The notes under the pieces were generated by a model. That model searched no databases. It saw only the letters and a program-made list of their open reading frames with translations, and had not been told where the DNA came from. Made by a program: the position numbers and the translations under genes. Shown one piece after another: positions 6,554-35,358 of a stretch of DNA of 64,000 nt (position 1 is its first letter; each line of letters opens with the position of its first letter). Origin of the DNA: Hypericibacter adhaerens (lineage in GTDB: Bacteria > Pseudomonadota > Alphaproteobacteria > Dongiales > Dongiaceae); assembly GCF_008728835.1 (NCBI RefSeq), contig NZ_CP042582.1, positions 5,625,001-5,689,000 of the forward strand, written 5' to 3'.

Positions 6554-6582
6554 TCCCGACAGCTTCCGACGTTCGGATCCCG

Positions 6583-10130: not shown

Positions 10131-10217
10131 TGGGCGCCATGCTATGAAGCGCCCGGACGGCGGCACCGGCCCGCTCGCCGCCGATATTCCCCTTCAGGGC
10201 CGCCCGTGAGTACCGCC

Positions 10218-19379: not shown

Positions 19380-20374
19380 TTGGATGCGGCGGCCCCCAGC
19401 CGGATGCGCGGATCGAGCACGGCCAGCGCCAGATCCGAAAGGAACATGCCCACCACGGTCAAGAGGGCGAGGAACATCAGGAACGAGCCCGCCAGATACA
19501 TGTCCTGGCTGCGCAGCGCATCGAGCAGCATGGGACCCGTCGTCGGCAGCGACAGCACCACCGACACGATCACCGCGCCCGACACGACCTCGGGCAGCAG
19601 GCTGCCGATATCGGCGATGAAGGGGTTGATCGCCATGCGCAGCGGGTATTTCCACAAGAGCCTGGTCGGCGACAGGCCCTTGGCACGGCCGGTCACGACA
19701 TATTGCTTCTGCAGCTCGTCGAGCAGGTTGGCGCGCAGGCGGCGGATCATGCCGGCGGTGCCGCTGGTGCCGATCACGATCACCGGCACCCACAGATGCG
19801 CCAGCACCGACCTGGCCTTGGCCCAGCTCCAGGGCGCGTCGGCATAGCTCGGATCCATCAGCCCGCCGATCGAGATGCCGAACTTCACGTTGGCGAAATA
19901 GAGCAGCACCAGCGCCAGGAGGAAGCTCGGCGTTGCCAGCCCCAGGAAGCCGAGGAAGGTCAGCGCATAGTCGCCGAGGCTGTATTGCCGGACCGCCGAA
20001 TAGATTCCGATCGGGAAGGAGACGACCCAGATGAAGATGATGGTCGCGACCGACACCACGATGGTCAGCGCCAGGCGGTCGCCCACCACCTGGTTCACCG
20101 GCATCCCGTATTCGAAGGAGTAACCCAGGTCGCCTTGCACCAGATTGCCGACCCAGACCGCGTACTGCACCAGGAAGGGACGGTCGAGGCCGTACTGGTG
20201 GCGCAGGAAATCGATCTTCTGCTGGTCGACCGCCTCGCCCTGGCTTTGCAGCTCGGCGATGTAGGTCGAGAGATAGTCGCCGGGCGGGGCCTGGATGATG
20301 GCGAAGACCAGGAAGCTGATGACCAGCAGCGTCGGCACCATCACGATCAGGCGGCGGAGCAGATAGGAGAACAT
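19376..20374 (-). CDS. ABC transporter permease, OppB/DppB type
   Basis: 332 aa, six TM segments. N-terminus MFSYLLRRLIVMVPTLLVIS is the classic family start. Periplasmic segment LDRPFLVQYAVWVGNLVQGDLGYSF and the EAA loop (LRANLLDELQKQYVVTGRAKGLSP...LLWKYPLR) are present. It overlaps the OppC-type gene by 4 bases and sits 47 bases after the binding-protein gene, so the two permeases are translationally coupled. Inner membrane. Confidence 0.94.
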   Translation of the reverse strand: MFSYLLRRLIVMVPTLLVISFLVFAIIQAPPGDYLSTYIAELQSQGEAVDQQKIDFLRHQYGLDRPFLVQYAVWVGNLVQGDLGYSFEYGMPVNQVVGDRLALTIVVSVATIIFIWVVSFPIGIYSAVRQYSLGDYALTFLGFLGLATPSFLLALVLLYFANVKFGISIGGLMDPSYADAPWSWAKARSVLAHLWVPVIVIGTSGTAGMIRRLRANLLDELQKQYVVTGRAKGLSPTRLLWKYPLRMAINPFIADIGSLLPEVVSGAVIVSVVLSLPTTGPMLLDALRSQDMYLAGSFLMFLALLTVVGMFLSDLALAVLDPRIRLGAAASK

Positions 20375-20421: not shown

Positions 20422-22425
20422 TCAGTTGGCGGCGGCCGTCTGGGTCGCCTTCTCGTCGAGCCAGAAGGTATCGGGCTTGTAGACGCCGAGCTGCGCGCCC
20501 GGCTCCCAGTTATAGACGGCCGTGTCCGGCAGATTGTGCAGGAAGTTCTTCGCCACCACCGGCTGCGGCACGCTGTTGACGGTGCCGATCACGAACACCT
20601 GGTCGCTGTAGATCTGCAGCATCTGCTCCCAGATCGCCGTGCGCTCCTCGTCGGTCGCGGATTCGCGCCACTTCTGCAGCAAATCGAGCAGCTGCTTGGC
20701 GACCGGCATGTCGGCGGCCTCGCCCGAGCCGCTCATGGTCTCGCGGAACTGGCCCCATTTCGGCCATTGCAGCTGCTGCTGGCTGGTCGGTGCGAATTCG
20801 AGCGGCGCCACGTCGGGCGTGGGAATGCCGTTGTCGAGCCCGGTCCAGACCGCCATGACATTGTCGCCGGCGAAGATGCGGTTGCGGAAGACCTCGCGCT
20901 GCGAGGGCTTCACATAGAGCCGGATGCCGAGCTGGGCCCAGCTGTCGCGGATCAGCTCGAGCACGTCCGATTCCTCGGTGCTCTCGCCGGCGCTCTCCAC
21001 CAGGATGTCGACGGTGCGCCCGTCCGGCAGCAGCCGGACGCCGTCCTCGTCGCGCTTGTCGAGGCCCATCTCGTCGAGCAGGGCGTTGGCCTGCGCGATG
21101 TCGAGGCTGGCCCAGGCATTGGCGTAGGTCTCGTTGTAGAGCGGGCTCTGCGGCAGCACCATGTTGGCGCTTTCCTTGGCCAGGCCGTAATAGATCACCT
21201 GGTTGATCTCGTGCCGGTCGATCCCGAGCGAGAGCGCGCGCCGGAACCGCACGTCGCGCAGCACGTCGCGCCAGACCGGATCGTTGCAATTGAGGTTGGG
21301 GTAGAGCGCCACCTGCGAGCCCATGCCGTTGGTCCAGAGCCGCACGCGGTAATTGCCGCGCGTCTCGCCGTCCTTGAGGAAGGTGTAGTTGTCGAAGCGC
21401 AGGTTGCGCGACTGCAAGGTCGTCTCGCCGGCGCCGACCTTGGCCGGGATCAGCTTGCTGTCGACGATGTCGAAGATCACGCGATCGACATAAGGCAGCT
21501 GGCGGCCGCGCGGATCGACCCGGTAGTAGTAGGGATTGCGCTCGAACACGAAGCGCTCCGCCGGCGGCTTGGTCACCAGCATCCAGGGATCGAGCGTGGG
21601 CTGCTTGGGGTTGTCGTTCTTGTACATGTTGTCCCTGCGGTTATGCAGGGCGGCCCAGCTCGGCTGCTGCGCCTCCTGGACCTTCTGCGCCAGATCCGCG
21701 GCGTCCGCGTATTTGACGTGGAACTTCTTCAGGTAATGGCTGGGGCGGTAGATATAGAGCGGCGTCGTGCCCGCCAGCGCCGGCAGGAAGTCGGCATTGG
21801 GCTTCGACCAGCTGTAGCGGACGGTGTATTTGTCCGGGAACTCGACCTTGGGCCACTCGCCATCCACGCTCAGGACCGAGGGCGGACCCGTGGGCGACAG
21901 TTCCTGGTTGTTGGCGACGTCCTCCCACCAGTAGCGGAAATCCTCCGCATCGAAGGGTTTGCCGTCGGACCACTTCATCCCCTTGCGCAGGTGGAAGGTG
22001 AAGATGCGTCCGTCCTCGACATCGTAGGATTCGGCGATGTCGGCGACGATCTTGAAGTCGCGGTCGTAGCCCACGAGGCGCGCATAGCTATAGACCACCA
22101 TCATGCGGGTGTCCTTGGCGGACCCCATCAGCATGGTGAGATCGCCGCCATAGCGCCCGGCCTCGCTCATGTTGGCGACCGCGGGATCCTCGGGCAGCCG
22201 CTGGTTCACCGGCGGCAGGTCGCCCGAGGCGATCTTGTCGGCGAACCAGGGCGAATCCGAATAGGCCTGCTGGGCCTGGGCGCCGCCGCTCTGGATCGAT
22301 CCGGCCAGGAGGACCGCGAGCGCCGTCAGGACGCCGCGCCTCGCCCATCGCAAGAGGCGCGCGCGTGCCGGCATCGTCGCGAGGTCTGGCGCCGGCGAAA
22401 GGGACGATGAAGGGATCGGCCGCAT
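20422..22425 (-). CDS. Periplasmic solute-binding protein, family 5 (peptide/oligosaccharide type)
   Basis: 667 aa from ATG 22425 (GAGG 8 bases upstream; 10 bases after the ATPase stop). Signal peptide with hydrophobic core VLTALAVLLAGSIQSGGAQA. The SBP_bac_5 pattern is clear: LAESYDVEDG-like (IAESYDVEDGRIFTFHLRKGMKWSDG), KPFDAEDFRYWW, FRRALSLGIDRHEINQ, LLDEMGLDKRDEDGVRLLPDGR. At over 640 residues it belongs to the long variant of the family. I recall that some long members, such as the rhizobial alpha-galactoside binder AgpA, take oligosaccharides rather than peptides, so with glycosyltransferase neighbours the ligand may be a glycan fragment (inference). Confidence 0.92.
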   Translation of the reverse strand: MRPIPSSSLSPAPDLATMPARARLLRWARRGVLTALAVLLAGSIQSGGAQAQQAYSDSPWFADKIASGDLPPVNQRLPEDPAVANMSEAGRYGGDLTMLMGSAKDTRMMVVYSYARLVGYDRDFKIVADIAESYDVEDGRIFTFHLRKGMKWSDGKPFDAEDFRYWWEDVANNQELSPTGPPSVLSVDGEWPKVEFPDKYTVRYSWSKPNADFLPALAGTTPLYIYRPSHYLKKFHVKYADAADLAQKVQEAQQPSWAALHNRRDNMYKNDNPKQPTLDPWMLVTKPPAERFVFERNPYYYRVDPRGRQLPYVDRVIFDIVDSKLIPAKVGAGETTLQSRNLRFDNYTFLKDGETRGNYRVRLWTNGMGSQVALYPNLNCNDPVWRDVLRDVRFRRALSLGIDRHEINQVIYYGLAKESANMVLPQSPLYNETYANAWASLDIAQANALLDEMGLDKRDEDGVRLLPDGRTVDILVESAGESTEESDVLELIRDSWAQLGIRLYVKPSQREVFRNRIFAGDNVMAVWTGLDNGIPTPDVAPLEFAPTSQQQLQWPKWGQFRETMSGSGEAADMPVAKQLLDLLQKWRESATDEERTAIWEQMLQIYSDQVFVIGTVNSVPQPVVAKNFLHNLPDTAVYNWEPGAQLGVYKPDTFWLDEKATQTAAAN

Positions 22426-22435
22426 CGGATCTGCC

Positions 22436-24319
22436 TCAGGACGCGAATTTAAGCGCGCTGGCCGCCTCGGCTGCACGCAGGAAATGGCCGGGCGCCACCT
22501 CGATCAACGAAGGGTGGTTCCCCTCGTCGATGGTGAAGGGTGCCGGCCAGGCCGAGGGCACCGAATGGCGCTCGGCGGTGAGCTTCTGGAAATCGAGCGG
22601 ATAGCGCGGGTCGGGCTCGGGCACCGCCGAGAGCAGCGCCTTGGTGTAGGGATGGATCGGGTTGCGGAACAGGGTCGAGGAGGGCGCCAGCTCGACCAGC
22701 CGCCCGGCGCACATCACGGCGATCCGGTCGGCGATATAGTCCACCACCGCCAGGTTGTGCGAGATGAAGAGATAGGTGAGGCCCAGCTTCTGCTGCAGGT
22801 CCTTCAGCAGGTTGAGGATCTGGGCCTGGATCGAGACGTCGAGGGCCGAGACCGGCTCGTCGCAGATCAGGAGATCGGGCTGGAGCGCCAGCGCGCGGGC
22901 GATGCCGATGCGCTGGCGCTGGCCGCCGGAGAAGCTGTGCGGATAGCGCTTGAGGTGGCGGACATCGAGCCCCACCAGCTGCATCAGCTCCTTCACCGCC
23001 TCCGCGCGGCTGCGATCGTTGCCCACGCCATGGACCACGAGCGGCTCGCTGATGATGTCGAACACCGTCATGCGCGGGTTGAGCGAGCCGTAGGGATCCT
23101 GGAACACGAACTGGATCTTGCGCCGATACTTGAACAGCGCCTCGCCCCTGAGGCCCAGCACGTCGAGCCGCTTGCCGAAATCGTTGAAGGTGATCTTGCC
23201 GCTGTCGGGCGTGATGGCGCGCATGATCATCTTGCTGACGGTGGTCTTGCCGCAGCCGCTTTCGCCCACCAGCCCCAGGCACTCGCCGCGCGCGATCTCG
23301 AAGCTCACATCGTCGACCGCGAGGATCTTGTCGCTCCGGCCCGCCAGCGCGCCCTGGCGGCGATGATAGCTCTTGCTCAGATGCTCGACCGAGAGCAGCG
23401 GTCCCGCCGCGACCGCTTCCGCGGGCCAGTCCTTGCGGCCCCTGAGCAGCCGGGCGTCCGCCGTCGCGATCTCGCGGATCGGCACCAGCCTCTCGCCCGG
23501 CGCCATGTGGAAGCGCGGCACGGCGCGCAGGAGCGCCTTCAGATAGGGATGCTGCGGGTTGGCGAAGATGTCGGCCAGCATGCCGCTTTCCATGATCTGG
23601 CCGTGATACATGACCACCACTTCCTCGGCCATGTTGGCGACGACGCCGAGATCGTGGGTGATCATCAGGAGCGCCATCCCCAGCTCCTGCTGGAGGTCGC
23701 GGATCAGCTTCAGGATCTGCGCCTGGATGGTGACGTCGAGCGCGGTGGTCGGCTCGTCGGCGATCAGGAGCGCCGGCCGGCAGATCAGCGCCATCGCGAT
23801 CATCGCCCGCTGGCGCAGGCCCCCGGAGAGCTCGAACGGATAGGTGTCGTAGGCCCGCTTGGGATCGGGGAAGCGCACCAGCCGCAGCATCTCGATCACC
23901 AGCTCCTTGCCGGTGGCCGCGTCCACCTTGCGGTGCAGATGCAGCGCTTCGCAGATCTGGTTGCCGATCGTGTGGAGCGGCGAGAGCGAGCTCATCGGCT
24001 CCTGGAAGATGATCGAGATGCGTCCGCCGCGCAGCTCGCGGAACTGGGAGCCCCGGGGCGACAGTTTCGCGATGTCGGTGACGGCGCCTCCCTTGGCCGG
24101 ATCGGCGAACAGGATCTCGCCGCCGGTGATCCGGGCGGAGCCGGGCAGGATGCCCATGATGGCCTGGCTGATGACCGTCTTGCCCGAGCCGGATTCGCCC
24201 ACCAGCGCCACCGAGCCGCCTTGCGGAACCCGCAGGGAGACGCCGCGCACGGCGTGAACCACGCCGCCCGGCAGCATGAAGGAGACCGAAAGGTCCTTGA
24301 TCGAGAGAAGATCGGTCAC
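22436..24319 (-). CDS. Dual ATP-binding protein of an Opp/Dpp-type importer (DppD-DppF fusion)
   Basis: 627 aa from a GTG at 24319, which overlaps the upstream stop by 4 bases (GTGA). The frame extends further upstream, but only as a shadow. Two complete ATPase domains: domain 1 with Walker A GESGSGKT (41-48), signature LSGGLRQR (164-171) and Walker [14 protein letters not shown]; domain 2 with Walker A GESGCGKT (352-359), FSGGQRQR and [12 protein letters not shown]. Each is followed by the oligopeptide-family C-terminal segment (HPYLKALL and [16 protein letters not shown]). It energises the permease pair downstream; a single polypeptide replaces the usual D and F subunits. Confidence 0.94.
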
Positions 24320-24846
24320 GGCTCGACACCGTCGCGGGCGTCGCGCCAGGAAGGCCCGCCGGCAAAGCCGAGGGCTTCGAGATTGGCGCGCGTGGTGTCG
24401 TCGATCGCGATGCCGTTGTCGCGCACCGCGAGTGCCGCGCGCCGCGTCATGTCCTCGAAGCCATCGAGATCGGAATCGAAAGCGATGCGTGCCGTGGGCC
24501 CGGCGAGATGCATCGTGAACCATCCATTCTTGCGGTTGCGGCGGGTCGAGTAGTAACGAAGCTTAACCGACACGAGATCGCGCCATGCCACTGTTTCCTT
24601 ACTGAAAATCACCGACCGGGGCGAGGTCATAGTGAGGGCCTGATCGGACAGCTCGATACGGACGGCTTGCCGCCACACCGTCCTTATCGTGAACAGGAGA
24701 AAGAGGAGCGTCAATCCGCCGATAAGAATGTGAACCTGTGGTGCCGAGGGCAGGAGCAGCCAGGCCGCGATCGAGCCCGCGAGGCCGAGGCCGCCGCGCA
24801 GATAGTCGCCGATGAGCCGGCGGCCCTGATACCGCAGCACCGTCAC
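24316..24846 (-). CDS. Small membrane protein with a PH-like domain, unknown function
   Basis: 176 aa. Two hydrophobic segments near residues 20-35 and 38-55, then a beta-rich region beginning [42 protein letters not shown], the pattern of bacterial PH-like membrane proteins (YdbT/bPH type). The start overlaps the deacetylase gene by 4 bases and the stop overlaps the ATPase start by 4 bases. This links the glycan genes to the importer by translational coupling. I do not recognise a specific family. Confidence 0.72.
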
Positions 24847-25637
24847 GCGGCCCTGCCATGGCCGGGGTCGGCCTTCGCAGGCCCGCGGAAGGCGATGCCG
24901 CTGCCGACCCAGCGGGCGGCCGGATGGCCCCCGGTTTCATCAAGAAAGCGCGCGATGAAATCCCAGCCGGCCCGGTCGTGGGCCAGATGATGTGTCATGA
25001 GGCCGGTCGGCTCGCGTCGGTCGGCCTCGCCGCTGCGCCGCAGGTGCAAATGGAGAACGGCACGTTTCAGGATGGGCCTTGCGCCCAGGAACCGCCGGGT
25101 CGTCCAGTTCATGACGTCGAGATGGACGTTGCTCTGCAGCATCCGGCCCGCCGCGAAACGATGGGCGCGCGCGCCGAAGACCGACAGGCCGCGATAATCC
25201 GCGCGCGCCAGGGCCGCGATCACGGTGTCGTCGATCCGGTTCCAGGGCGGCACCATCACCGCGATGAACTGCCGGCCGAACAGCTCCTCGAGCTTGCGCC
25301 GGCCCACCCTGAGCTCGGCCATGACTTTCGCCACGGGCCGGTGGGAACCCAGCTCGATCGTCTTGTCGCCGTCGGGGGCGTGATTGTGGTGCGCATAACC
25401 ATGCTGCAGCACCTTGAGACCGGTTTCGGCGCGCAGCCGGCCGGCCAGGGCGCGGCCTGCCGGCGCCGGAATCACCGCGAGCGCCAGCGGCAGGTCGCGC
25501 GAGGACCGCAGTGCCAGGAGCCGGTCGAGGGCCGGCGAGGGTTCGACCGCATCGTCGTCGCGCCACCAGAAATCGGCGCGCAGGCCGGCATCCGCCCAGC
25601 GATCGAGCTCGGTCCTGAGCGCCGCCCAGCTGCTCAT
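24843..25637 (-). CDS. Polysaccharide deacetylase-like protein
   Basis: 264 aa with the NodB-like barrel pattern: FWWRDDDAVEPSPALDRLL at about 23 (the DD metal/catalytic motif), LALAVIPA, LKVLQHGYAHHNHAP (HxxxH-like metal site near 80), and VMVPPWNRIDD at about 130. It lacks a signal peptide, so it would act in the cytoplasm on a lipid-linked or nucleotide sugar, unlike secreted chitin deacetylases. It overlaps the glycosyltransferase gene upstream and the PH-like gene downstream by 4 bases each. Confidence 0.8.
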   Translation of the reverse strand: MSSWAALRTELDRWADAGLRADFWWRDDDAVEPSPALDRLLALRSSRDLPLALAVIPAPAGRALAGRLRAETGLKVLQHGYAHHNHAPDGDKTIELGSHRPVAKVMAELRVGRRKLEELFGRQFIAVMVPPWNRIDDTVIAALARADYRGLSVFGARAHRFAAGRMLQSNVHLDVMNWTTRRFLGARPILKRAVLHLHLRRSGEADRREPTGLMTHHLAHDRAGWDFIARFLDETGGHPAARWVGSGIAFRGPAKADPGHGRAA

Positions 25638-26833
25638 GCCCGCCGGCCCCCGGATGCTTTGCCGTCGGTCGCCAGGCCCGGGGCGTGCGGCCCGGCCAGA
25701 GCCCGCAGCATCCGCGCGCTTTGCGCCCCACCATCGAAACGCAGCGTCATCACCGGCCGGCTTGCCGCCGCGGCCCGGTCGATCGCCGCCGCGAAGGAAG
25801 CGGGCGCCAGCGCCTCGCCCTCGACCAGGTGGATCAGCTTCATCGCCGCCAGCCGGCGCGCCCGCAGGGTCTGCTCCGTCTCGCTGGCTTCGGCAAAGGG
25901 CACGACGAGCGCGCGGGCCCGGACGCTGAGGAGTTCCATGACGGTATTATAACCGGCCTGCGAGATGGAAAGGTGGCAACGGGCGAACAGCGCCGGCAGG
26001 TCCGCCCGCACACGATCCAGCTGAACGCCTGCAGGCAAGGACAGCCGCAAGGCGTCGAGGTCGCGCTCGGCCATGCCGGGACCGGTCACGATCCGCCAGG
26101 GTTTGTCGCGCCAGCGCGTCAACGGCCGCGCCGCGAGCGCCGCTTCGATCAGCGGGCGTCCCACGGCACCGCCGCCGGCCGAGACCAGGATCTCGTCGCT
26201 CACCGGCGTGTCCGCGCCGGCGATCGTGCCTTGCGCCGCGGAATCGACCACGAAGCCCGTATAGGCGAGACGGTCGGCCAGCGCCGACGCCACCGGAAAG
26301 CTGGCCTCGAGCGGAATGACCGCGGGATCGCCATGCACCAGCACGCGGTCGAAATATGTCCGCGCCAGCACGATCATCTCCTCCTGCCGCCGCGGATCGG
26401 ATTTCATCACCAGCACGTCGCGCAGGGAGCAGACCGTGACCGGACGCGGATGCCGGGCCTGCGCGGCCTCGAGCAAAGGCAGGAGCTCGAAGCGGAAGGC
26501 GCGCCGGCCGAAAGGGAACTGCTCGATCAGCAGCAGATCCGGCCGGCACGCGTCGAAGAGGCCCAAGAGCGCCTCGCGCCGTGACGCGCGCCAGGCATCG
26601 TCGATCGGCTGTCCCCGCTCGTCGATGATGGTGGAGAAGCGGCCGTCGGCGCTTTCCGCGGGCGGCAGTTGCACCAGCCGTCCGGCCGGGGCGATGCCCT
26701 CGACCGGCCGTCCGCCCGAAGCGACGGTCACCTCGATGCCGGCTTCCTCGCAGGCGCGCACCAGCGCCATGGCGCGACGGAAGTGACCCACCCCGAGGAG
26801 ATGCTGCACATAGAAGAGAAGCCGCGGCGCCAT
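25634..26833 (-). CDS. Glycosyltransferase of the MurG-like (GT28) fold
   Basis: 399 aa from ATG 26833, which overlaps the preceding phosphatase stop by one base (TGATG); a longer frame to 27208 is a shadow of that gene. N-terminal sheet LLFYVQHLLGVGHFRRAMALVRACEEAGIEV, then EILVSAGGGAVGRPLIEAAL near residue 215 and the donor-binding SISQAGYNTVMELLSVRARALVVPF near 310, as in MurG-type transferases. It is similar in layout to the protein at 30127-31371 (HLLGVGHFRRA versus DTFGLGHLRRC). Donor and acceptor unknown. Confidence 0.85.
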   Translation of the reverse strand: MAPRLLFYVQHLLGVGHFRRAMALVRACEEAGIEVTVASGGRPVEGIAPAGRLVQLPPAESADGRFSTIIDERGQPIDDAWRASRREALLGLFDACRPDLLLIEQFPFGRRAFRFELLPLLEAAQARHPRPVTVCSLRDVLVMKSDPRRQEEMIVLARTYFDRVLVHGDPAVIPLEASFPVASALADRLAYTGFVVDSAAQGTIAGADTPVSDEILVSAGGGAVGRPLIEAALAARPLTRWRDKPWRIVTGPGMAERDLDALRLSLPAGVQLDRVRADLPALFARCHLSISQAGYNTVMELLSVRARALVVPFAEASETEQTLRARRLAAMKLIHLVEGEALAPASFAAAIDRAAAASRPVMTLRFDGGAQSARMLRALAGPHAPGLATDGKASGGRRA

Positions 26834-27480
26834 CAGCCGGCCCCGCGCCGAGGATCCGCCGCCGCCTCGGCCGGCAGGAGGGAGAGATTGAGCCGCTCGA
26901 TCCGGGGCTGGCCGTCGGCGGCGATGGCGAATATCTGCAGGCAGTCGGGCTGGAGCTTCACCGGCGGCTTTCCGGTCATGTCCCACCGCGCCGCCATCGC
27001 GTAGAGCGCGCGCATGACGCCGCGATGGGTGATGGCGAGCCGGTCGTCGCCGGCGGCCGCGATCTCGCCGAGCCAGGGCCCCAGGCGCTGCTGCACCTCG
27101 CGCGGGGATTCGCCGCCGGGCGCCCGGTAGTCGAGGCCGCGCTCCTCGAGCGCCGCCATCGCTGCGCCCAGCCGCGCGCGCAAATCGGCGAGCCGCTCGC
27201 CTTCCCATTGGCCCTGGCTCATCTCGGCGAGGCGGGGCTCGATGGCGATGGCATCCCCATGGGCGTGGCTCGCCGCGAGGAGCGCCGCGGTCTCGCGGCA
27301 GCGCCGGAGGGGGCTCGTGACCCAGGGCCGGGCGGCCCAGGGCGCCGGTAAGCGCCAGGCTTGCACCCGTGCGCGACCCGCCTCGTCCAGCGGCTGGTCG
27401 CTGCGGCCTTGCAGCCGTCGCGCGCGATTCCAGGCGGTGGGCCCGTGCCGCAGCAACGCGAGCTGGATCGCCGCCGTCAT
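26833..27480 (-). CDS. Histidine phosphatase (phosphoglycerate-mutase-like)
   Basis: 215 aa. The catalytic LLRHGPTAWNRARRLQGRSDQPLDEAG at residues 9-35 contains the RHG phospho-histidine motif. SPLRRCRETA, a catalytic acid in EMSQGQWEGE, and the second His in AITHRGVMRALY complete the site. The GQWEG motif matches the alpha-ribazole phosphatase/CobC-like and sugar-phosphate phosphatase group. In this glycan cluster a sugar-phosphate or polyprenyl-phosphate substrate is plausible (inference). It lies 37 bases after the preceding GT4 gene and its stop overlaps the next start. Confidence 0.87.
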   Translation of the reverse strand: MTAAIQLALLRHGPTAWNRARRLQGRSDQPLDEAGRARVQAWRLPAPWAARPWVTSPLRRCRETAALLAASHAHGDAIAIEPRLAEMSQGQWEGERLADLRARLGAAMAALEERGLDYRAPGGESPREVQQRLGPWLGEIAAAGDDRLAITHRGVMRALYAMAARWDMTGKPPVKLQPDCLQIFAIAADGQPRIERLNLSLLPAEAAADPRRGAG

Positions 27481-27517: not shown

Positions 27518-28711
27518 TCAGGCGCTCGCGAGCGCGCGGCTGCCCGCCTCGCGCTGGGCGCGCAGCGAGGCCGCCGTCAGGATCTTGTCGAGCGCCGTCG
27601 CGGCTACCGCCAGCCGGTGGTCGGCGGCGACCTTGGCCAGCGCGGCCTGGCGCATCTGCTGGCCGCGTTGCGGCGCGTCGAGCAGCAGGCGCACCGCATG
27701 GGCGAAGGCGGCGGCGTTGCCCAGCGTCGTCAGGATGCCGGTGGCGCCGCTCGCCACGATCGACGCGACGCCCGCGCTGTCGCCGGCCACCACCGGCAGC
27801 CCCGAGGCCTGCGCCTCCAGGAGCGCCATGCCATAGGCCTCGTTGATGGCGGGCCAGACCATGAGGTCGCTGCTGACATAGGCGGCGGCCAGCCGTTCGG
27901 CGCCGAGCGCGCCCGCGAAACGCAGCCGCTCGGTACCCACCGGGGCCAGCGCCGCTTCGACCTCGGCGCGGGCGGGCCCGTCGCCCACCACCAGGAGCTG
28001 CCAGCGCCGGTCCAGAACGCCGGCCAGCGCTTCGGCCAGCACGCGATAGGAGGCAAGCTTGTCGCCCGGCCGCATCATGCCCACCGCCAGGAGCCAGGGC
28101 TGCTCGGGATCGAGCCCATAGGCGGTCACGAGCTCGCGCTTGTGCCGCAGCCTCGCGGCCATCGCCGCCTGGAAGGGGCTCTCGTCGAGAAATGGCTTCA
28201 TCAGATGGAGGCCGCCGCCGTCGGACGAGGGCGACACCAGCGGGCGGACGCAGGCCATGTCGGTCGGGTTGAGCGCGATCACCGCGTCGGCGCGGCGGAT
28301 GGCGGCCTCGACCGCCGCGTGGCCCTCGGCCCAGGGTCCCTGGGCGCGCTTGGGCGCATGCGAGGCCTCGGCCACCACATAGGCGAGGCCCAGCGCGTCA
28401 GCCACGCGCGGCCCGATCCAGTCGGGCGCCTTGTAATAGAGATGGTAGGTCAGCCACAGGCTCGGGCGCTCTGCCTCGGGCAGCGCCCGCCAGCGCCGGA
28501 TCAGCCGCTCGGCCTGCTGCCGGCCCATCGCCGCGATCTCGGCTTGGCGGATGGGATTTCCGTCCGCCTCGCGCGACCGCAGCCGGCTCGCCAGCTCGAC
28601 CTCGTGATTGCCCTTGGCAAGCGCCGCCATCAGCAGCCGTGCCATGGCGCGGTCGCCCGAGGGGATCGGATGGCCCGGGGGCTTGAGGGGCGCATAGAAG
28701 GCGACCTTCAT
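27518..28711 (-). CDS. Glycosyltransferase family 4
   Basis: 397 aa, GT-B fold. N-terminal MKVAFYAPLKPPGHPIPSGDRAMARLL (donor-site loop with SGD), then the C-terminal half PWLLAVGMMRPGDKLASYRVLAEAL...QLLVVGDGPAR and the donor-binding ELYGMALLEAQASGLPVVAGD variant (here NEAYGMALLEAQASGLPVVAG, with the E-x7-E pattern). The start overlaps the stop of the upstream GT4 gene by 4 bases (ATGA). Probably builds a surface or extracellular glycan; linkage unknown. Confidence 0.88.
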   Translation of the reverse strand: MKVAFYAPLKPPGHPIPSGDRAMARLLMAALAKGNHEVELASRLRSREADGNPIRQAEIAAMGRQQAERLIRRWRALPEAERPSLWLTYHLYYKAPDWIGPRVADALGLAYVVAEASHAPKRAQGPWAEGHAAVEAAIRRADAVIALNPTDMACVRPLVSPSSDGGGLHLMKPFLDESPFQAAMAARLRHKRELVTAYGLDPEQPWLLAVGMMRPGDKLASYRVLAEALAGVLDRRWQLLVVGDGPARAEVEAALAPVGTERLRFAGALGAERLAAAYVSSDLMVWPAINEAYGMALLEAQASGLPVVAGDSAGVASIVASGATGILTTLGNAAAFAHAVRLLLDAPQRGQQMRQAALAKVAADHRLAVAATALDKILTAASLRAQREAGSRALASA

Positions 28712-29997
28712 GAGCGGGCACCCGCTGCGGCGCGGGCCGGCGCCGCCGCCGTTTCACCGGCGAGGGAAGGAGCAAGGCCGAAGCGGCGGCTCAGCCAGTC
28801 GATGCCCTGCGTCATGTCGAAATCGCGCCGCACCCGGTCTTGGCCCGCAAGGCCCAGCCGATGGCGCCGCTCGGGATCGCGGATCAGCCGCTCCAGGGCG
28901 GCCGCCAGGGCCGCCGGATCGCCCGGCGGCACCAGCAGCCCCTGGTCGCCGTCCTCCACCAGCTCGCCGATGCCGGGCAGCGCGCTCGAGACCACGGGCA
29001 GGCCCTGGCTCAGCGCTTCCATCAGCACGTTGGGCAGGCCGTCGCGGTCGCCGTCGGCGGCGATCACGCTCGCCAGCACGAAGAGATCGGCTGCCGCATA
29101 GGCCTCGATCACCCGTTCCTGCGGTTGCGCGCCGCGCCACTCGATCCGTTCGCCGAGCCCGAGCCGGGTCGCCTCGCGCTGCAGCGTCTCCTTGAGCGGC
29201 CCGCCGCCGACATGGACGAGCCGCCAGGCCAGACCCTGTGGCAACCGCGCCAGCGCCGCCAGCAGCACCTCATAGCCCTTCTTCGGCACCGCACGGCCGA
29301 CCGACAGCAAGCGCACGGGTTGCGCTTCGTCGCTGCCGTCGCGGCGCTCCTGGCGCCGCGCCGCGGGTGTCGGGAAGCGGTCGAAATCGAGCCCGTGATG
29401 CACCAGCGTGACCTTCGACGGCGTCGGCGCCAGGGCGGCCAGATGCTGGCGGCCCTCGCTCGTGCAGGTCACGAGCCAGTCGAGGCTGGCGAGCTTCTCG
29501 CGCTTCTCCCAGTCGGGCGTGGTCCAGATGTCCTTGGCGTGGGCCGAGCCGCTCCAGGGCAGATCGAGCAGCAGCGCCGTATAACGGGCGACCGAGGCGG
29601 GCGTATGGAGGAAATGGGCGTGCAGCCGTTTTACCCCCACCGGCATTTCCGCCGCCAGCACGAGAGCTTGGCCCAGACGGCGCAGCCGGTTGCGGGTGCG
29701 ATCGCGCCTGAGGTCGGCCATGAAGGCCTGCAGCAGCCGCGGATAGCGCGGGTGGCGCCGCATCCGTCGCCAGGCGCGCCAGACGCGCCACGGCTCGTGA
29801 TGGAGATATTCCGGCAGGTAAAGCACCGGCGCGCGAATCTCGCGATGGACCGGGTGGAGGGAGCGGTCGGTCGGATGGCGCAGCGAGACGATGCGGATAT
29901 CGAGCCCTCGTTCCTCGAGGGCGCGGATCTCCTGCGCGATGAAGGTCTCCGACAGCCTCGGATAGCCTTTGAGCAGAAAGGCGACGGTGTCTGCCAA
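28708..29997 (-). CDS. Glycosyltransferase family 4 (WcaL/colanic-acid-like)
   Basis: 429 aa. N-terminus FLLKGYPRLSETFIAQEIRALEERG is the hallmark of the WcaL-type subgroup. Mid-protein HAHFLHTPASVARYTALLL and GSAHAKDIW are typical. The C-terminal domain carries LLSVGRAVPKKGYEVLLAAL, VHVGGGPLKETL, DGLPNVLMEALSQGLPVVSS and GLLVPPGDPAALAAAL. First gene of the minus-strand run of ten; its upstream gap (29998-30126) is only 129 bases, so the run may continue from the gene at 30127-31371. Confidence 0.9.
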   Translation of the reverse strand: MADTVAFLLKGYPRLSETFIAQEIRALEERGLDIRIVSLRHPTDRSLHPVHREIRAPVLYLPEYLHHEPWRVWRAWRRMRRHPRYPRLLQAFMADLRRDRTRNRLRRLGQALVLAAEMPVGVKRLHAHFLHTPASVARYTALLLDLPWSGSAHAKDIWTTPDWEKREKLASLDWLVTCTSEGRQHLAALAPTPSKVTLVHHGLDFDRFPTPAARRQERRDGSDEAQPVRLLSVGRAVPKKGYEVLLAALARLPQGLAWRLVHVGGGPLKETLQREATRLGLGERIEWRGAQPQERVIEAYAAADLFVLASVIAADGDRDGLPNVLMEALSQGLPVVSSALPGIGELVEDGDQGLLVPPGDPAALAAALERLIRDPERRHRLGLAGQDRVRRDFDMTQGIDWLSRRFGLAPSLAGETAAAPARAAAGARS

Positions 29998-30126: not shown

Positions 30127-31371
30127 TCAGCCGATGCCGATCGCCGGGTTGTGGGTGGCGCGCCTGATCCGGGGCCGGCGCTGGCGGGCGAGCCACTGCT
30201 GGGCCAGGCGGTTCACGTTGTAAAGCCCGTCGAGCAGGCCCGGCACCACCACCTGCGAGGGCAGGCGCTGCTGCGGCAGCTGGCGCAGCGCGGTCGCCAT
30301 CATGTGCGGGTCGCGGTTGTTGCCTTCCTCGGTCAGCATCTGGATCAGGCCGAGATCGGCCGCGCGCGCCGCGCGGATGAATTGCTCGCGGCGCGGATGG
30401 GTGCGCGGAATGATGAGAGCGCGTTTGTCGAAGGAGAGGATCTCGCAGAAGGTGTTGTAGCCGCCCATCGCCACCACGCCGACAGCGGCCGCCATCAGAT
30501 GCTCCATCTGGGCATCGAAGGTGATGGCCTCGACGTTGGGCAGCTGCGCCGCCCGGGCCAGGAACTCCCCCTGGCGCTCCGACTGCATGAAGGGACCCAG
30601 CACCAGGAGCGCGGGATAGGGCAGGTGGCGGTCATGCTCGTAGGCCGAGAGCACCCAGTCGATCACGCCTTCGCCATCGCCGCCGCCGCCGGTGGTGACC
30701 AGCAGATAGGGGCTGGTGATCTTCTGCAGATGCGTCATCTGGCCATGCGCCGCCGAGAGGGAGCGAGGCAGATAGCCGGTATAGGTCATGCGCTTGCGGA
30801 CCGACCAGGGCACGTCGATGCCGGCGAGCGGATCGCCGCAGAGCTGCGGCAGGCCATAGACCCAGATATCGTCGTAGAGCTCGGCCACCGCCGGGATGAC
30901 GCGCTTGCGCTCCCACTCGGGCGCCAGCAGGGCCGGCTCGTCCAGCACGTCGCGCAGGCCCAGGATCAAGGGCGTGCCGCGCTCGCGCAGCATCTCGAGC
31001 GTCTCCAGCGCCTCGCCCCGGAGGCCGAGCGGCTCCTTGTCGACGATGAACAGATCGGGATCGAAGATGTCGGCGGTGTGACGGATGATCGAGGCGCGCA
31101 TCGCCAGCGTCTCCTCGATATCCACCAGGAGGCTGAGCGAGGTGTAGTCGCCGTTGCGCAGCTTGATCACGCCCGGGATGCGCACGAAATCGACGCGGGC
31201 GCGGAAATCGAACGAGCCGATGATCGGCGAGCCCGTCAGGATCAGGACCGAGAGATCCTTGTTGCGCTCGACCAGGGAATGCGCGATCGCGCGGCAACGG
31301 CGCAGATGGCCGAGTCCGAAGGTGTCGTGGCTGTAAATCAGCACGCGGGCGTTTCTGCGGGCTTCGCTCAT
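30127..31371 (-). CDS. MurG-like glycosyltransferase
   Basis: 414 aa from ATG 31371 (a TTG one codon earlier is also in frame). N-terminus RVLIYSHDTFGLGHLRRCRAIAHSLV, central LRDVLDEPALLAPEWE, then YLLVTTGGGGDGEGVIDWVL near 225 and GVVAMGGYNTFCEILSFDKRALIIP near 315, matching the donor-site region of GT28/MurG-type enzymes. It is a relative of the 25634-26833 protein. It starts 210 bases from the divergent large ABC gene, so the two may share a regulatory region. Substrate unknown. Confidence 0.85.
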   Translation of the reverse strand: MSEARRNARVLIYSHDTFGLGHLRRCRAIAHSLVERNKDLSVLILTGSPIIGSFDFRARVDFVRIPGVIKLRNGDYTSLSLLVDIEETLAMRASIIRHTADIFDPDLFIVDKEPLGLRGEALETLEMLRERGTPLILGLRDVLDEPALLAPEWERKRVIPAVAELYDDIWVYGLPQLCGDPLAGIDVPWSVRKRMTYTGYLPRSLSAAHGQMTHLQKITSPYLLVTTGGGGDGEGVIDWVLSAYEHDRHLPYPALLVLGPFMQSERQGEFLARAAQLPNVEAITFDAQMEHLMAAAVGVVAMGGYNTFCEILSFDKRALIIPRTHPRREQFIRAARAADLGLIQMLTEEGNNRDPHMMATALRQLPQQRLPSQVVVPGLLDGLYNVNRLAQQWLARQRRPRIRRATHNPAIGIG

Positions 31372-31581
31372 CAAGGCCGTCCGCTAGCGCTCACTCTCTC
31401 GATTTCCCCCGGGGCGGGACTATGCCATAGCGGCAAATCCCGATGAAAGCGAACTTATCGGGAAAATCCCTGACCCGGTCATGACTTGGCCGCTGTTCCG
31501 CGCGGCGGCCGGGTTCGCTATGGTAGAGGAAAGCCTCAAGGCCAGGTCTGGGGGGACCGGCCGAATTGCGGGGGATGGCGA

Positions 31582-34305
31582 TTGGAATCCAATCTTTTCA
31601 AATACATATGGCGACACAGCAAGGGCGAGCAGCTGGTCATCCTGCTCATCGTCGTGCTGTCCCAGCTGTTCTATTTCCTGTCGCTTGATCTGCCCAAGGC
31701 GATCGTCAACCGGGCCATCCAGGGCCAGGCCTTTACCGACGGGCGCACCACCACCCGGTTCTTCCCGATCGCTTTCGACGTGCCGGGTTTCCTCGAAGGG
31801 CTGGTCGGCCAGAAGCATGTCGTCCTGTTCGACGGCTTCCCGCTCGAACAGATCCCCTACCTGATCGCGCTCAGCATGCTGTTCCTGCTGCTCGTCATCA
31901 TCAACGGCGTCTTCAAGCTCCAGATCAATACCCAGAAGGGCCGGATGGGCGAGCGCATGCTGCGCCGCCTGCGCTACGAGCTGTTCGACCGCGTGCTGCG
32001 CTTCCCCCAGCTTCACTTCCGCCGCGTGAAGCAGGCCGAGATCGCCACCATGATCAAGGACGAGGTGGAGCCCCTGGGCGGCTTCATCGGCGATGCGTTC
32101 GTGGCGCCGGCCTTCCTCGGCGGCCAGGCCCTCACGGCGCTGGCTTTCATCCTGGCGCAGAGCTGGCTGCTCGGCGCCATCACGGTCGCGATCCTGCTGG
32201 CGCAGGCCATCATCATCCCGAAGCTCCGCGTCAAGGTGCTGATGCTGGGCAAGGCCCGCCAGTTGACCGCGCGCCAGCTCGCCGGGCGCATCGCCGAATG
32301 CGTCGACGGTTCCTCCGACATCCATGCCCACGATACCTCGAACTTCGAGCGGGCCGACATCGCCACCCGGCTCGCGCGCATCTTCGACATCCGGTTCGAT
32401 CTTTATCAGCGCAAGTTCGCGGTGAAGTTCCTGAACAACATGCTGGCGCAGATGACGCCCTTCCTCTTCTACCTGGTGGGCGGCTATCTCGCGATCACGG
32501 GCCATCTCGACATCGGCGGGCTGGTGGCGGTCATCTCCGCCTATAAGGACCTGCCGGGGCCGGTGAAGGAATTGATCGACTGGGATCAGCAGCGCCAGTC
32601 CGTGCAGATCCAGTATGAGCAGGTGGTCGACCAGTTCCAGCCGGACGGCGTGCTGGCCGCCGAGCTGCAGGCGATCGATGCGCCGGCCCCGCCGCTCGAG
32701 GGCGATGTCGCCTTCTCCAACCTCACCGTCATCGACGAGGCCGGCTCGCGCGTGCTCGACGGCATCGCCGCGAATTTCCCGCTGACCTCCAGGATCGCGG
32801 TGATCGGACCAGGCGGCAGCGGCCGCGAAGGCTTGGCGCTGGCGCTGATGCGGCTGATGCCGCCGGTTGCCGGCGGCATCTCGATCGGCGGCAAGAGCCT
32901 GGCCGAGATGCCGGAGGCGGTGACCGGCCGGCATATCGCCTATGCGGGGCCCGAGCCCTATCTCTTTCCCTTCTCGGTGCGCGAGAATCTGGTCTACGGG
33001 CTGAAGCATCGTCCGTTGCGCATGCCGGAATATGACGGGGCGGCTCTGGCCAAGCGCGAGGCGATCGTCCGCGAGGCGCGCCGCAGCGGCAATCCCGATT
33101 TCGATCTCAATGCCGACTGGATCGACTACGAATCCGCGGGCGTCGACGGGCCGGAAGCGCTCGAGGCGCGGCTGACGGCGCTGCTCAAGACCATCGAGCT
33201 CGATGAGGATGTCTATCAGCTCGGTCTCCGGGGCACGATCAACCCGGCCCAGCGCCCCGAGCTGGCCACCGCCGTCGTCGCCGCGAGGCGCGACCTGGCG
33301 CAGCGTCTCGCCGATCCGGCCATGGCGGCGCTGGTCGAACCCTTCGATCCCGACCGCTACAACAAGAACATGTCGGTGGCCGAGAATCTCCTCTTCGGCA
33401 CCGCCAAGGACGAGCTGGCGCCGGAACGGCTGATCGAGAACGACTATGTCCGCGAGCTGACGCGGCGCCTCGGCCTGCGCGACACGCTGGTCGACATGGG
33501 CCGCCAGATCGCGGAGACGATGATCGAGATCTTCGCCGATTTGCCGCCGGGCCATCCCTTCTTCGAGCAGTTCTCCTTCATCGGTGCCGAGGATCTGCCG
33601 CAGTTCCGCGCAATCCTGGGCCAGCTCGGCAAGACCGGCATCGCCAACCTGGACAAGAGCGCGCGGGCGCGCCTGATGCAGCTGACGCTGCCTTATATCG
33701 AGGCCCGCCACCGCCTCGGCCTGGTGGACGAGGCGATGGAGCGCCGCCTGCTCGAGGCGCGGCGCGCCTTCGCCGAGGGCCTGCCCGAAACGCTCAAGGG
33801 ATCGATCGAGTTCTATGACCGCGAGCGCTACAACGCGATCGCCAGCCTCCAGGACAACATCCTGTTCGGCCGCCTGGTCTATGGCCAGGCCCAGGCCGCG
33901 CAGAAGATCGGCCGCCTGATCGCCGAGGTGCTGGATGCGCGCCATCTGCGGGAATCGGTGCTGGGTGTCGGGCTCGATTTCCATGTCGGCATCGCCGGCA
34001 AGCGCCTGACCGCGGCCCAGCGCCAGAAGGTCGGGCTCGGCCGCGCGCTGCTGAAGCGCCCGCAGCTCCTGGTGCTGAACGAGGCGACCTCGCTGCTCGA
34101 CAATGCCAGTCAGATACGGATCGCCGATTCCATCCTCGGCAGCAAGGACAGCTTCGGTGTCCTATGGGTGCTCCACCGCGCCGACCTGGCGCGGCGGTTC
34201 GACCGCGTTCTCGTCATGAATGACGGGCGGCTGCTGGAGCAGGGGCCGCCTGCCGATCTGGATCGCTCCGGCACGACATTTCACGAGCTGGTTAACGCCG
34301 CTTGA
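31582..34305 (+). CDS. Large ABC exporter-like protein with degenerate, expanded ATPase domain
   Basis: 907 aa from a TTG at 31582 with GGGGGA 8 bases upstream; the open frame to 31486 has no better start. Residues about 5-350 form an exporter-type membrane domain (hydrophobic segments near 18-37, 90-110, 175-215, 290-312) with a type-1 exporter intracellular region (MGERMLRRLRYELFDRVLRFP). The ATPase part is abnormal: the P-loop at 409-417 is GPGGSGREG (Lys and Ser/Thr both lost), the signature is LTAAQRQ near 809, and Walker B is LLVLNEATSLLD (first Asp lost to Asn; E kept). The H-loop His near 865 is kept. Between P-loop and signature lie about 390 residues instead of roughly 110, including three NxxxG motifs after helical stretches (NLVYG 469, NLLFG 602, NILFG 759). 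It leads a triad with the next two genes. Confidence 0.85.
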   Translation: MESNLFKYIWRHSKGEQLVILLIVVLSQLFYFLSLDLPKAIVNRAIQGQAFTDGRTTTRFFPIAFDVPGFLEGLVGQKHVVLFDGFPLEQIPYLIALSMLFLLLVIINGVFKLQINTQKGRMGERMLRRLRYELFDRVLRFPQLHFRRVKQAEIATMIKDEVEPLGGFIGDAFVAPAFLGGQALTALAFILAQSWLLGAITVAILLAQAIIIPKLRVKVLMLGKARQLTARQLAGRIAECVDGSSDIHAHDTSNFERADIATRLARIFDIRFDLYQRKFAVKFLNNMLAQMTPFLFYLVGGYLAITGHLDIGGLVAVISAYKDLPGPVKELIDWDQQRQSVQIQYEQVVDQFQPDGVLAAELQAIDAPAPPLEGDVAFSNLTVIDEAGSRVLDGIAANFPLTSRIAVIGPGGSGREGLALALMRLMPPVAGGISIGGKSLAEMPEAVTGRHIAYAGPEPYLFPFSVRENLVYGLKHRPLRMPEYDGAALAKREAIVREARRSGNPDFDLNADWIDYESAGVDGPEALEARLTALLKTIELDEDVYQLGLRGTINPAQRPELATAVVAARRDLAQRLADPAMAALVEPFDPDRYNKNMSVAENLLFGTAKDELAPERLIENDYVRELTRRLGLRDTLVDMGRQIAETMIEIFADLPPGHPFFEQFSFIGAEDLPQFRAILGQLGKTGIANLDKSARARLMQLTLPYIEARHRLGLVDEAMERRLLEARRAFAEGLPETLKGSIEFYDRERYNAIASLQDNILFGRLVYGQAQAAQKIGRLIAEVLDARHLRESVLGVGLDFHVGIAGKRLTAAQRQKVGLGRALLKRPQLLVLNEATSLLDNASQIRIADSILGSKDSFGVLWVLHRADLARRFDRVLVMNDGRLLEQGPPADLDRSGTTFHELVNAA

Positions 34306-34361
34306 GCGGCTTGACCGGGAGAACCATTTCTTTCTGAAGGGCCCGGCACAGGAGGCCATGG

Positions 34362-34829
34362 ATGAGCATCAATCAGGAAGTCGAACTGCTGCGACGGATC
34401 CCGATGTTCTCGAAGATCGATCCGGCGAAGCTGCGGCTGCTGGCCTTCGCCAGCGAGCGCGTGACCTTCCCGGCCGGGGAAATCCTGTTCCATCAGGGCG
34501 ACCCCGCGGATGCCGCCTATCTGATCATCGACGGCAGCGTCTCGATCACGGTCGAGCTGGCGAGCGGGCCGCTCCTCGTGGCCAAGGTCGGCAAGGACCA
34601 GATCGTGGGCGAGATCGGCATCATCTGCGACGTGCCGCGCACCGCGACGGTCACCGCCGAGCAGCAGACCGTGACGCTCAAGATCACGCGCGACCTGTTC
34701 TTCCAGATGATCAACGATTTTCCCGTCATGGGCGTCGAGATCATGCGGGTGCTGGCGCATCGCCTCGAGCACACGACGGCGCAGCTGCGCAACTGCCAGC
34801 AGCGGCTCAACCAGCTCGAGCATGCGTGA
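34362..34829 (+). CDS. Single-domain cyclic-nucleotide-binding protein
   Basis: 155 aa consisting of one CRP-like cNMP domain and a C-terminal helix; no helix-turn-helix follows, so it is not a DNA-binding regulator by itself. Visible: LLRRIPMFSKIDPAKLRLLAF, FPAGEILFHQGDPADAAYLIIDGSV, and the phosphate-binding cassette VGEIGIICDVPRTATVTA with its Glu and Arg. It starts 57 bases after the ABC gene. It may act as a regulatory subunit for that protein. I recall that NHLM-type bacteriocin exporters carry fused cNMP domains, which makes the pairing reasonable. Confidence 0.88.
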   Translation: MSINQEVELLRRIPMFSKIDPAKLRLLAFASERVTFPAGEILFHQGDPADAAYLIIDGSVSITVELASGPLLVAKVGKDQIVGEIGIICDVPRTATVTAEQQTVTLKITRDLFFQMINDFPVMGVEIMRVLAHRLEHTTAQLRNCQQRLNQLEHA

Positions 34830-34866
34830 GGCCCGCGAGGGATCCCGGGCGCGAGACTGACGCCGG

Positions 34867-35358
34867 ATGAGCCGGCTCGATTCCTACATCCGCCGCATGC
34901 AGGCGCAGAAGCTCTGCCTCGATCAGGCGGCCCGCATGATCGGCCGGCGGCCCGGTCCCGTGCTGGAGCTGGGCTTCGGCAACGGGCGCACCTACGACCA
35001 TCTGCGCGAGCACTTCCCCGGCCGGGCGATCTACGTGTTCGACCGGCAACTCAATCCCCACCCCGATTGCATTCCGCCGGCGGACCTGGTGCGGCTCGGC
35101 GATTTCCGCGAGACGCTGCCGCGCTTCCTCGACGAGGCGCCGGAGCCCGCGGTCCTGATCCACGCCGATATCGGCACCGGCGACAAGATCGCGAGCCTCA
35201 GGCTCGCGCGCGACCTGACGCCGACGCTGGTCCATCTCCTGGCGCCGGGCGGGCTGCTGACGGGCGACCAGCCGATGAACGATGCGGAACTCGAAGCCCT
35301 GCCGCTGCCCGAGGGCGTGCAGCCGGACCGCTATCACCTCTATCGGCGCAAGGCCTGA
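34867..35358 (+). CDS. Small SAM-dependent methyltransferase (Methyltransf_17 type)
   Basis: 163 aa. The SAM-binding motif VLELGFGNGRTYDHLREHFPGR at about residue 31 is the signature of this small family. Also DRQLNPHPDC, then IHADIGTGDKIASLRLARDLTP and VHLLAPGGLLTGDQPM. It lies 37 bases after the cNMP gene in the same direction. Substrate unknown; methylation of a glycan, lipid or small molecule handled by the triad is an inference. It converges on xthA with a 12-base gap. Confidence 0.85.
   Translation: MSRLDSYIRRMQAQKLCLDQAARMIGRRPGPVLELGFGNGRTYDHLREHFPGRAIYVFDRQLNPHPDCIPPADLVRLGDFRETLPRFLDEAPEPAVLIHADIGTGDKIASLRLARDLTPTLVHLLAPGGLLTGDQPMNDAELEALPLPEGVQPDRYHLYRRKA

Follow-up and report, generated by a model that had tools for sequence, protein, structure and literature searches.

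What becomes of an ATP-binding cassette (ABC) exporter whose ATP site is lost: a decaying gene or a protein that works in another way? This question is raised by a 64,000-nt stretch of the Hypericibacter adhaerens genome (contig NZ_CP042582.1 of assembly GCF_008728835.1, positions 5,625,001 to 5,689,000 of the forward strand), which is referred to here as the window. It encodes a 907-aa exporter-like protein with a degenerate ATPase domain, termed pseudo-ABC. Two small genes follow on the same plus strand, as a sequence-only reading of the window had noticed: One codes for a cyclic-nucleotide-binding protein (CNB), the other for a protein of the Methyltransf_17 family. Pseudo-ABC is not a decayed gene but belongs to a conserved, selected-for and widespread family, and CNB is its true partner.

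The ATP site and the insert of pseudo-ABC

Pseudo-ABC has the layout of a type IV ABC exporter, with a transmembrane domain (TMD) followed by a nucleotide-binding domain (NBD) in one chain. This is indicated by Pfam, where ABC_membrane (residues 94-319) and a partial ABC_tran (residues 393-491) both score above the cut-off, and by Foldseek. The AlphaFold2 (AF2) model, computed from a 50-sequence alignment, has a pLDDT of 85.1 and a pTM of 0.79, with the NBD and the insert described below mostly at about 90. Its top Foldseek matches are type IV ABC exporters (E values down to 4e-16, about 330 extra columns), and the best NCBIfam match is MsbA_lipidA (171 bits, cut-off 602 bits). In the family alignment, conservation is highest at residues 101-350 in the TMD. 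The fold of TMD and NBD is common to MsbA, Atm1-type exporters, TmrAB, PCAT1 and P-glycoprotein. Pseudo-ABC differs from these by a family-wide loss of catalytic residues, an insert of about 320 aa, a CNB as partner or fused domain and a weak whole-chain superposition.

The degenerate motifs listed by the sequence-only reading, GPGGSGREG (P-loop), LTAAQRQ (signature) and LLVLNEAT (Walker B), are all found as written in the 907-aa translation. The window protein keeps two of seven catalytic residues, has Arg at the position of the P-loop Lys and lacks the motif set of active exporters (Walker A GxxGxGK[ST], Walker B DE, LSGGQ, H-switch). To assess the family, the window protein and those of 119 loci, near-duplicates included, were aligned (120 sequences). 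Among these, 93 are non-redundant at <90% identity; a set of 116 rows comprises them and 23 added relatives (20 lower-scoring matches from genomes of the class and three rhizobial ones). In none of the 120 sequences are all seven catalytic residues kept, and the maximum of five is reached in three. The same maximum applies to the 116 rows, where the 23 added relatives, fusions included, score 0-2; in several of these divergent proteins the P-loop pattern is unrecognisable. Within the 93 non-redundant sequences, the P-loop Lys is present in 69, the following Ser/Thr in 9, both together in 3 and Lys combined with Asp/Glu in 64. The first Walker B position is Asp in 19 and Asn in 68, the catalytic Glu is kept in 47, and Asp and Glu occur together in 2. 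The signature glycines survive in 5/93 and 7/93 and the switch His in 23/93; the D-loop Asp840 is kept in 89/93. As control, seven loci of the same genome (L002-L008) were tried, five of which yielded open reading frames (ORFs) with canonical motifs, corresponding to three exporter genes. All three have 7/7 residues in the identical alignment columns, which validates the columns, not the biology, since they were chosen for canonical motifs. Two of the loci tried, the neighbouring L002 and L004 (at about 64-66 kb of contig C1 of this genome), gave TMD-only matches in open frames of 375 and 364 aa with no canonical ATPase motif.

As judged from these residues, pseudo-ABC is probably non-hydrolysing. 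Alternatively, it might still be driven by ATP, which would be bound and slowly turned over at a non-canonical site (GxxxxGK[DE], Asn-Glu Walker B), with CNB acting only as a modulator. The frequent retention of Lys415, of the Lys-Asp/Glu combination, of the catalytic Glu and of Asp840 is consistent with this idea. So is a clade of three loci, L070, L078 and L112 (local support 93), that scores 5, 4 and 5 of 7; L069 and L121 (4/7) apart, it holds the most complete ATP sites on the tree, and none of its members has an adjacent CNB. However, the Arg in the window P-loop, the scores of the 23 added relatives, several of them without a recognisable P-loop, and the rarity of the signature glycines argue against an ATP-driven protein, so that we regard this alternative as unlikely. 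TmrAB and TM287/288 are heterodimeric exporters with one degenerate site. Since both are among the Foldseek matches, pseudo-ABC could also be the degenerate half of such an exporter, with the canonical half encoded elsewhere. To our knowledge, the degenerate exporter partners keep both P-loops, whereas Lys and Ser/Thr coincide in only three of the 93 sequences here. In addition, no second ABC_membrane match was found among the window proteins scanned. A heterodimer is, therefore, very improbable.

Could pseudo-ABC be a transporter in decay, a pseudogene in progress? The eroded motifs of the window protein would fit. However, the gene is present in 79/240 genomes of the class and in 16/21 genomes of a search among relatives, the own genome included in both cases, and the same degeneracy and the same insert are found throughout the family. 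At a strict threshold, 27/398 genomes of the phylum carry it, all from the same class. A scan of named genomes (E <= 1e-3) yielded at least 551 stretches encoding a relative; the best 80 were taken, among them some labelled Betaproteobacteria in their records. Pseudo-ABC is also encoded on 262 plasmid records, mostly from Rhizobium and Sinorhizobium. Compared with a same-genus relative (90% identity), omega amounts to 0.15 in the TMD and 0.17 in the insert, and each of the two NBD core parts has a value of 0.12. This means that the degenerate NBD is under purifying selection. Family-wide conservation and the omega values of 0.12-0.17 rule out a decayed gene, and this explanation can practically be dismissed. 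In the record of Sinorhizobium meliloti 1021 pSymB (L152, NC_003078.1), pseudo-ABC is split into two overlapping ORFs and has full-frame length in strain 2011; the break in the 1021 record is either real or a sequencing error.

The second hallmark of the family is the insert. Between P-loop and signature, 400 residues were measured, close to the earlier estimate of about 390, compared with 104-109 residues in the three canonical control genes, which have one N-x-x-x-G after the P-loop. In pseudo-ABC, N-x-x-[FY]-G occurs three times, at N469, N602 and N759, exactly as had been noticed. The element described as RYN-x6/7-S had to be corrected to RYN-x3-S (residues 592-598 and 749-755). All 116 rows, down to about 30% identity, have the insert, with a length of 297-333 aa when counted to residue 797; the control exporter genes fill just 19-23 of its 306 columns. 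The Asn of segments 1, 2 and 3 is kept in 92, 93 and 93 of the 93 non-redundant rows and the full motif in 74, 93 and 91, which shows that the recurrence is not accidental. All three Asn are found together in 115/116 rows. The full N-x-x-[FY]-G was rejected as a universal feature, since all three motifs are complete in only 83/116 rows; most of the losses concern segment 1. By profile comparison with hhalign, segments 2 and 3 are homologous to each other and arranged in tandem (probability 97.8, E 1e-12 over 64 columns). Segment 1, located at the true Q-loop, gives weak matches to both (probabilities 29 and 20), and its homology to them is not established. The term 'threefold-expanded' for this NBD was right in kind, clearly for segments 2 and 3 and weakly for segment 1. 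In ABC exporters, the Q-loop/helical subdomain is the part that meets the coupling helices, and the insert may be pictured as its expanded form. Among the homologues examined, none has an intact ATP site and none lacks the insert; as the gene pair is conserved as well (see below), neither of the two results that the sequence-only reading had named as refuting was obtained.

CNB, methyltransferase and class III cyclases

CNB is a lone cNMP-binding domain without a DNA-binding part, as proposed: Pfam shows PF00027 alone, and the model (pLDDT 91.2), a CRP-like domain, ends in a single 34-residue C-helix (121-154). A CRP/FNR transcription factor was considered and rejected because these 155 aa include no C-terminal helix-turn-helix. 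The protein shares with CRP/FNR-type domains the beta-roll, the phosphate-binding cassette Gly-Glu...Arg-[Ser/Thr]-Ala, here GE...PRTA, and the long C-helix. Its best single-domain sequence match in the PDB is 5d1i, and the closest folds are GlxR and mycobacterial CRP. In contrast to these regulators, CNB lacks the helix-turn-helix, and its partner, encoded next to it or in the same chain, is a membrane protein of ABC fold. TIGR03896, a bacteriocin-type transport-associated cNMP domain, has a link to export by its family name; the match is weak and far below the cut-off (41.8 versus 161 bits), and CNB represents a different protein family. Unlike the ATP site of pseudo-ABC, the CNB pocket is conserved. 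Among 112 sequences, Gly83 and Arg93 are found in 112 each, Glu84 in 103 (Asp in 8 more), Thr94 in 100 (Ser in 5 more) and Ala95 in 107. A Thr in the PRTA cassette is typical of eukaryotic cGMP sites, so that the ligand of CNB may be either cAMP or cGMP.

CNB is adjacent to pseudo-ABC on the same strand, or fused to it, in 72/76 loci with sufficient flank (54/56 named, 18/20 divergent). Eight divergent loci encode a single ABC-CNB protein of 1008-1080 aa. In the 240 class genomes, 75 of the 77 with a CNB match of at least 100 bits also carry pseudo-ABC (hand count). The exceptions are G037 and G185; in the latter, a CNB match (116 bits) and, at a distance of about 3 kb, a class III cyclase match were found, but none to pseudo-ABC at the chosen threshold. 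Genome G165 harbours three pseudo-ABC copies (L129, L130, L131), every one of them fused to a CNB domain.

The third protein matches Methyltransf_17 over the full profile (179.9 bits, positions 1-160 of 160), and its solved relative 3iht is found with E 4e-39. The three genes had been proposed to form a triad. As a unit, the triad is ruled out: The pair of pseudo-ABC and CNB is the conserved core and the methyltransferase an optional accessory, located near pseudo-ABC in 36/55 named and 1/19 divergent loci with enough flank. According to a hand count in the class, 56 of 58 genomes with Methyltransf_17 carry pseudo-ABC, and 56 of 79 genomes with pseudo-ABC carry Methyltransf_17. A CNB-Methyltransf_17 pair away from pseudo-ABC was observed in G098, G168, G210, G221 and G234; G221 holds a fused ABC-CNB and, separately, such a pair.

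Is a source of cyclic nucleotides encoded nearby? A class III cyclase was detected near pseudo-ABC in 10/78 non-redundant loci (6/58 named, 4/20 divergent) with flanks of varying length. PF00211 was confirmed by Pfam in 9 of these 10 and in L044, a locus outside the non-redundant set that also has a class III cyclase; L095 was assigned by homology. In all five rhizobial records, a cyclase is encoded at the opposite end of the array, about 10-12 kb from pseudo-ABC. G238 has a PF00211 match 0.7 kb after the Methyltransf_17 gene. The linkage recurs in several lineages and, when mapped on a quick tree built from the TMD columns, requires at least seven changes. In the own genome of 5.87 Mb, 20 PF00211 matches were counted. 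If this density held everywhere, about 3/78 loci with 6-kb flanks would be expected by chance, so that the enrichment is suggestive but modest.

Neighbouring genes and the S. meliloti array

The features of the window are compiled in Table 1. The MurG-like glycosyltransferase (GT) gene noticed next door is confirmed as a divergently oriented GT28-like gene; this arrangement recurs in all 13 genomes common to both searches, namely the own genome and others of its genus and family, and a GT28-like gene is present in 33/54 named loci with flank. The deacetylase-like protein has no Pfam or PHROGs match of its own.

Table 1. Features of the window; positions count from its first nucleotide, residues refer to the respective protein.
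Feature	Position	Strand	Remarks
MBL (metallo-beta-lactamase)-fold protein	16302..17147	+	42% identical to MBL protein of S. meliloti region
OppC-type permease	18180..19375	-	start inferred, ORF runs to 19793
OppB-type permease	19376..20374	-	
SBP_bac_5 substrate-binding protein (SBP)	20422..22476	-	start approximate
Fused Opp-type importer ATPase	22436..24523	-	two ABC_tran
Polysaccharide-deacetylase-like protein	24843..25637	-	40% identical to annotated S. meliloti deacetylase
Second GT28-like glycosyltransferase	25634..26764	-	start approximate
Histidine phosphatase superfamily protein	26833..27480	-	Pfam scan
GT4 glycosyltransferase	27518..28711	-	41% identical to gene placed by order as smb21252
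GT4 glycosyltransferase	28708..29997	-	57% identical to GT4 of S. meliloti array
GT28-like glycosyltransferase	30127..31374	-	divergent from pseudo-ABC
Pseudo-ABC exporter gene	31582..34305	+	TTG start; 907 aa; Pfam, AF2, Foldseek
Pseudo-ABC, transmembrane domain	31588..32634	+	residues 3-351; AF2 model, alignment
Pseudo-ABC, degenerate P-loop GPGGSGREG	32806..32832	+	residues 409-417
Pseudo-ABC, Q-loop-like segment 1	32935..33003	+	residues 452-474, N469
Pseudo-ABC, insert of about 320 aa	33004..33969	+	residues 475-796, NBD helical subdomain
Pseudo-ABC, Q-loop-like segment 2	33337..33402	+	residues 586-607, N602
Pseudo-ABC, Q-loop-like segment 3	33808..33873	+	residues 743-764, N759
Pseudo-ABC, degenerate signature LTAAQRQK	34006..34029	+	residues 809-816
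Pseudo-ABC, Walker B LLVLNEAT	34066..34089	+	residues 829-836, first Asp replaced by Asn
CNB protein	34362..34829	+	155 aa; cNMP-binding domain and long C-helix, no DNA-binding part
CNB, phosphate-binding cassette GEIGIICDVPRTA	34608..34646	+	residues 83-95
Methyltransf_17 (PF12692) protein	34867..35358	+	solved relative 3iht

On rhizobial plasmids, a cyclase, an Opp importer, glycosyltransferases, pseudo-ABC and CNB are encoded within one array. Similarly, Opp-type genes (SBP, permeases) are located upstream of pseudo-ABC on the same strand in a clade whose loci, from metagenome-assembled genomes (MAGs), are for the most part labelled beta; SBP cluster c7 comprises 10 loci of this clade and 2 rhizobial loci. 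For 12 of the 20 S. meliloti array genes compared, the best match is a distinct window gene (one-way blastp, 40-72% identity). The query for one gene consisted of two fragments, and a 13th gene, encoding a GT4, matches only window glycosyltransferases already counted. Identities amount to 61.5% for OppDF, 51.6% for the SBP, 65.7% and 71.9% for the permeases, 41-60% for four glycosyltransferases (two over partial length), 49% for pseudo-ABC and 50% for CNB; those of the deacetylase and the MBL protein are given in Table 1. The array differs from the window in a cyclase, a polysaccharide lyase and an FkbM methyltransferase, each without window match, whereas the window has Methyltransf_17 and the histidine phosphatase. 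In S. meliloti ml46 (L153), two glycosyltransferase genes (9281-10632 and 11687-13071) are split and unannotated; they are single ORFs in LMB1 (L149).

The array was placed by gene order along plasmid CP140883 of strain ml46 using anchors from passages of PMC5498481, and would fall within smb21252-smb21271. The numbers SMb21191-21196 and SMb20811-20816 were discarded; according to the passages available, SMb21191 is msbA2, about 100 kb away. Nine genes within smb21252-smb21271 are reported in passages of PMC10128002 to be needed for an uncharacterised phazolicin-protecting polysaccharide (PPP), and the minimal inhibitory concentration of phazolicin drops from 1.47 to 0.18 ug/ml in smb21252 and smb21265 mutants. 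Seven of the nine are up-regulated under Myxococcus predation (passages of PMC10315480). The passages of the PPP literature at hand mention neither pseudo-ABC nor CNB, and literature searches yielded just two papers on PPP and none naming SMb21266-21270. From the larger PPP-array-like cluster and the optional methyltransferase it follows that the 'methylated glycoconjugate' suggested as substrate is reasonable for genomes with Methyltransf_17 and does not apply in general.

In view of these neighbours, pseudo-ABC might not be a transporter at all, but a scaffold in the membrane or a receptor for cNMP, keeping in place and regulating the glycosyltransferases of the cluster or the Opp importer. 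The lost ATP site, the upstream Opp genes in the mostly beta-labelled clade and the rhizobia, and the frequent GT28-like neighbour would agree with such a role. On the other hand, residues 101-350 of the TMD are the most conserved part, hinting at a path or a lipid-facing role that has been retained. Furthermore, no other ABC-exporter-type (second ABC_membrane) or Wzx-type match was found among the window proteins scanned, which do not cover every ORF; an MFS gene lies nearby. Taken together, we judge a scaffold or receptor rather unlikely. This MFS transporter gene (14821-16176, minus strand) lies near the Opp genes of the cluster. Elsewhere in the window, positions 323-9948 of the plus strand contain six tandem Porin_4 genes with 61-92% mutual identity.

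Possible function of the pseudo-ABC/CNB pair

The idea of a non-hydrolysing exporter-like protein coupled to a cNMP protein, put forward by the sequence-only reading, is supported by the conserved loss of the ATP site and by the conserved pair. We propose tentatively, with slightly less than even confidence, that pseudo-ABC acts as a homodimeric flippase or export gate of ABC fold, switched by cNMP and independent of ATP hydrolysis, for a glycan of the PPP type. An inner-membrane homodimer would flip or export a surface glycan or glycolipid built by the neighbouring glycosyltransferases. ATP hydrolysis would have been lost and would not be the driver. The NBDs would be retained and enlarged by tandem Q-loop/helical copies as a coupling platform, and CNB would be a CRP-like dimeric cAMP/cGMP sensor that supplies the conformational switch in place of ATP. 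In the resulting 2:2 complex, the CNB dimer would be docked to the NBDs at their C-terminal face, in line with its place in the fusions. Binding of cAMP or cGMP would move the NBDs, and this movement would open or close the TMD for the glycan or glycolipid. As for SbmA, a downhill gradient of the substrate or of protons might provide the energy. SLiPTs, the peptide transporters to which SbmA and BacA belong, have no NBD. According to passages of PMC13316013, their ABC-exporter-type TMD is energised without ATP. Pseudo-ABC could work like a SLiPT; membership is not claimed, since, in contrast to the NBD-less SLiPTs, its NBD is kept, enlarged and under selection.

Several observations weigh against this proposal. 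Residues 161-176 and 327-343 of the AF2 model are below a pLDDT of 50, and in the Foldseek rows displayed the chains as a whole superpose poorly (TM-score by query <0.4, rmsd about 14 A or more). The residual P-loop Lys (69/93) and catalytic Glu (47/93) make some nucleotide binding possible. CNB is not adjacent in 4/76 loci (L070, L078, L138 and L144). Linkage to a cyclase is a minority trait; in the window, no cyclase is adjacent, and the nearest PF00211 match is about 34 kb away. The orthology of the cluster is based on one-way blastp and gene content, and gene orientation differs, with the glycosyltransferase and Opp genes of the window running opposite to pseudo-ABC. As the pSymB numbers were counted from anchors and are not strictly consecutive, the placement of the array is inferred; pseudo-ABC would be tied to PPP by this placement and not by a phenotype of its own in the sources available. 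Finally, the MFS gene near the cluster could also encode an exporter.

In a more specific version, the cNMP-bound CNB dimer, joined to the C-terminus of the NBDs as a separate or fused protein, would replace ATP in closing and opening the NBD dimer, making pseudo-ABC a ligand-gated ABC protein, i.e. a second-messenger-gated glycan flippase. We consider this version doubtful. The clade L070/L078/L112, with its fuller ATP sites and no adjacent CNB, is a possible natural test of a replacement of ATP by CNB. Against such a use, it is one clade, and two of the genomes involved, G168 and G234, retain a CNB-Methyltransf_17 pair elsewhere. Moreover, L138 and L144, the other loci without adjacent CNB, score only 1 and 2.

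By its fold, the family is known; new is the combination of a conserved dead ATPase, a tandem Q-loop-like insert and a cNMP partner. In searches of open-access papers, no title or abstract was found that deals with the pairing of a degenerate ABC exporter and a CNB in such a setting. If our proposal is true, a large, selected-for family of exporters without a recognisable ATPase would separate the structural role of the NBD from its energetic role. It would represent a second route from ATP-driven to ATP-independent transport besides the NBD-less SbmA-type proteins. Likewise, a CNB with a conserved pocket would provide a direct link from cAMP or cGMP to the cell envelope that does not involve transcription. 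Pseudo-ABC and CNB are also candidates for the transport and signalling parts of the system for the polysaccharide that shields S. meliloti from an antimicrobial peptide.

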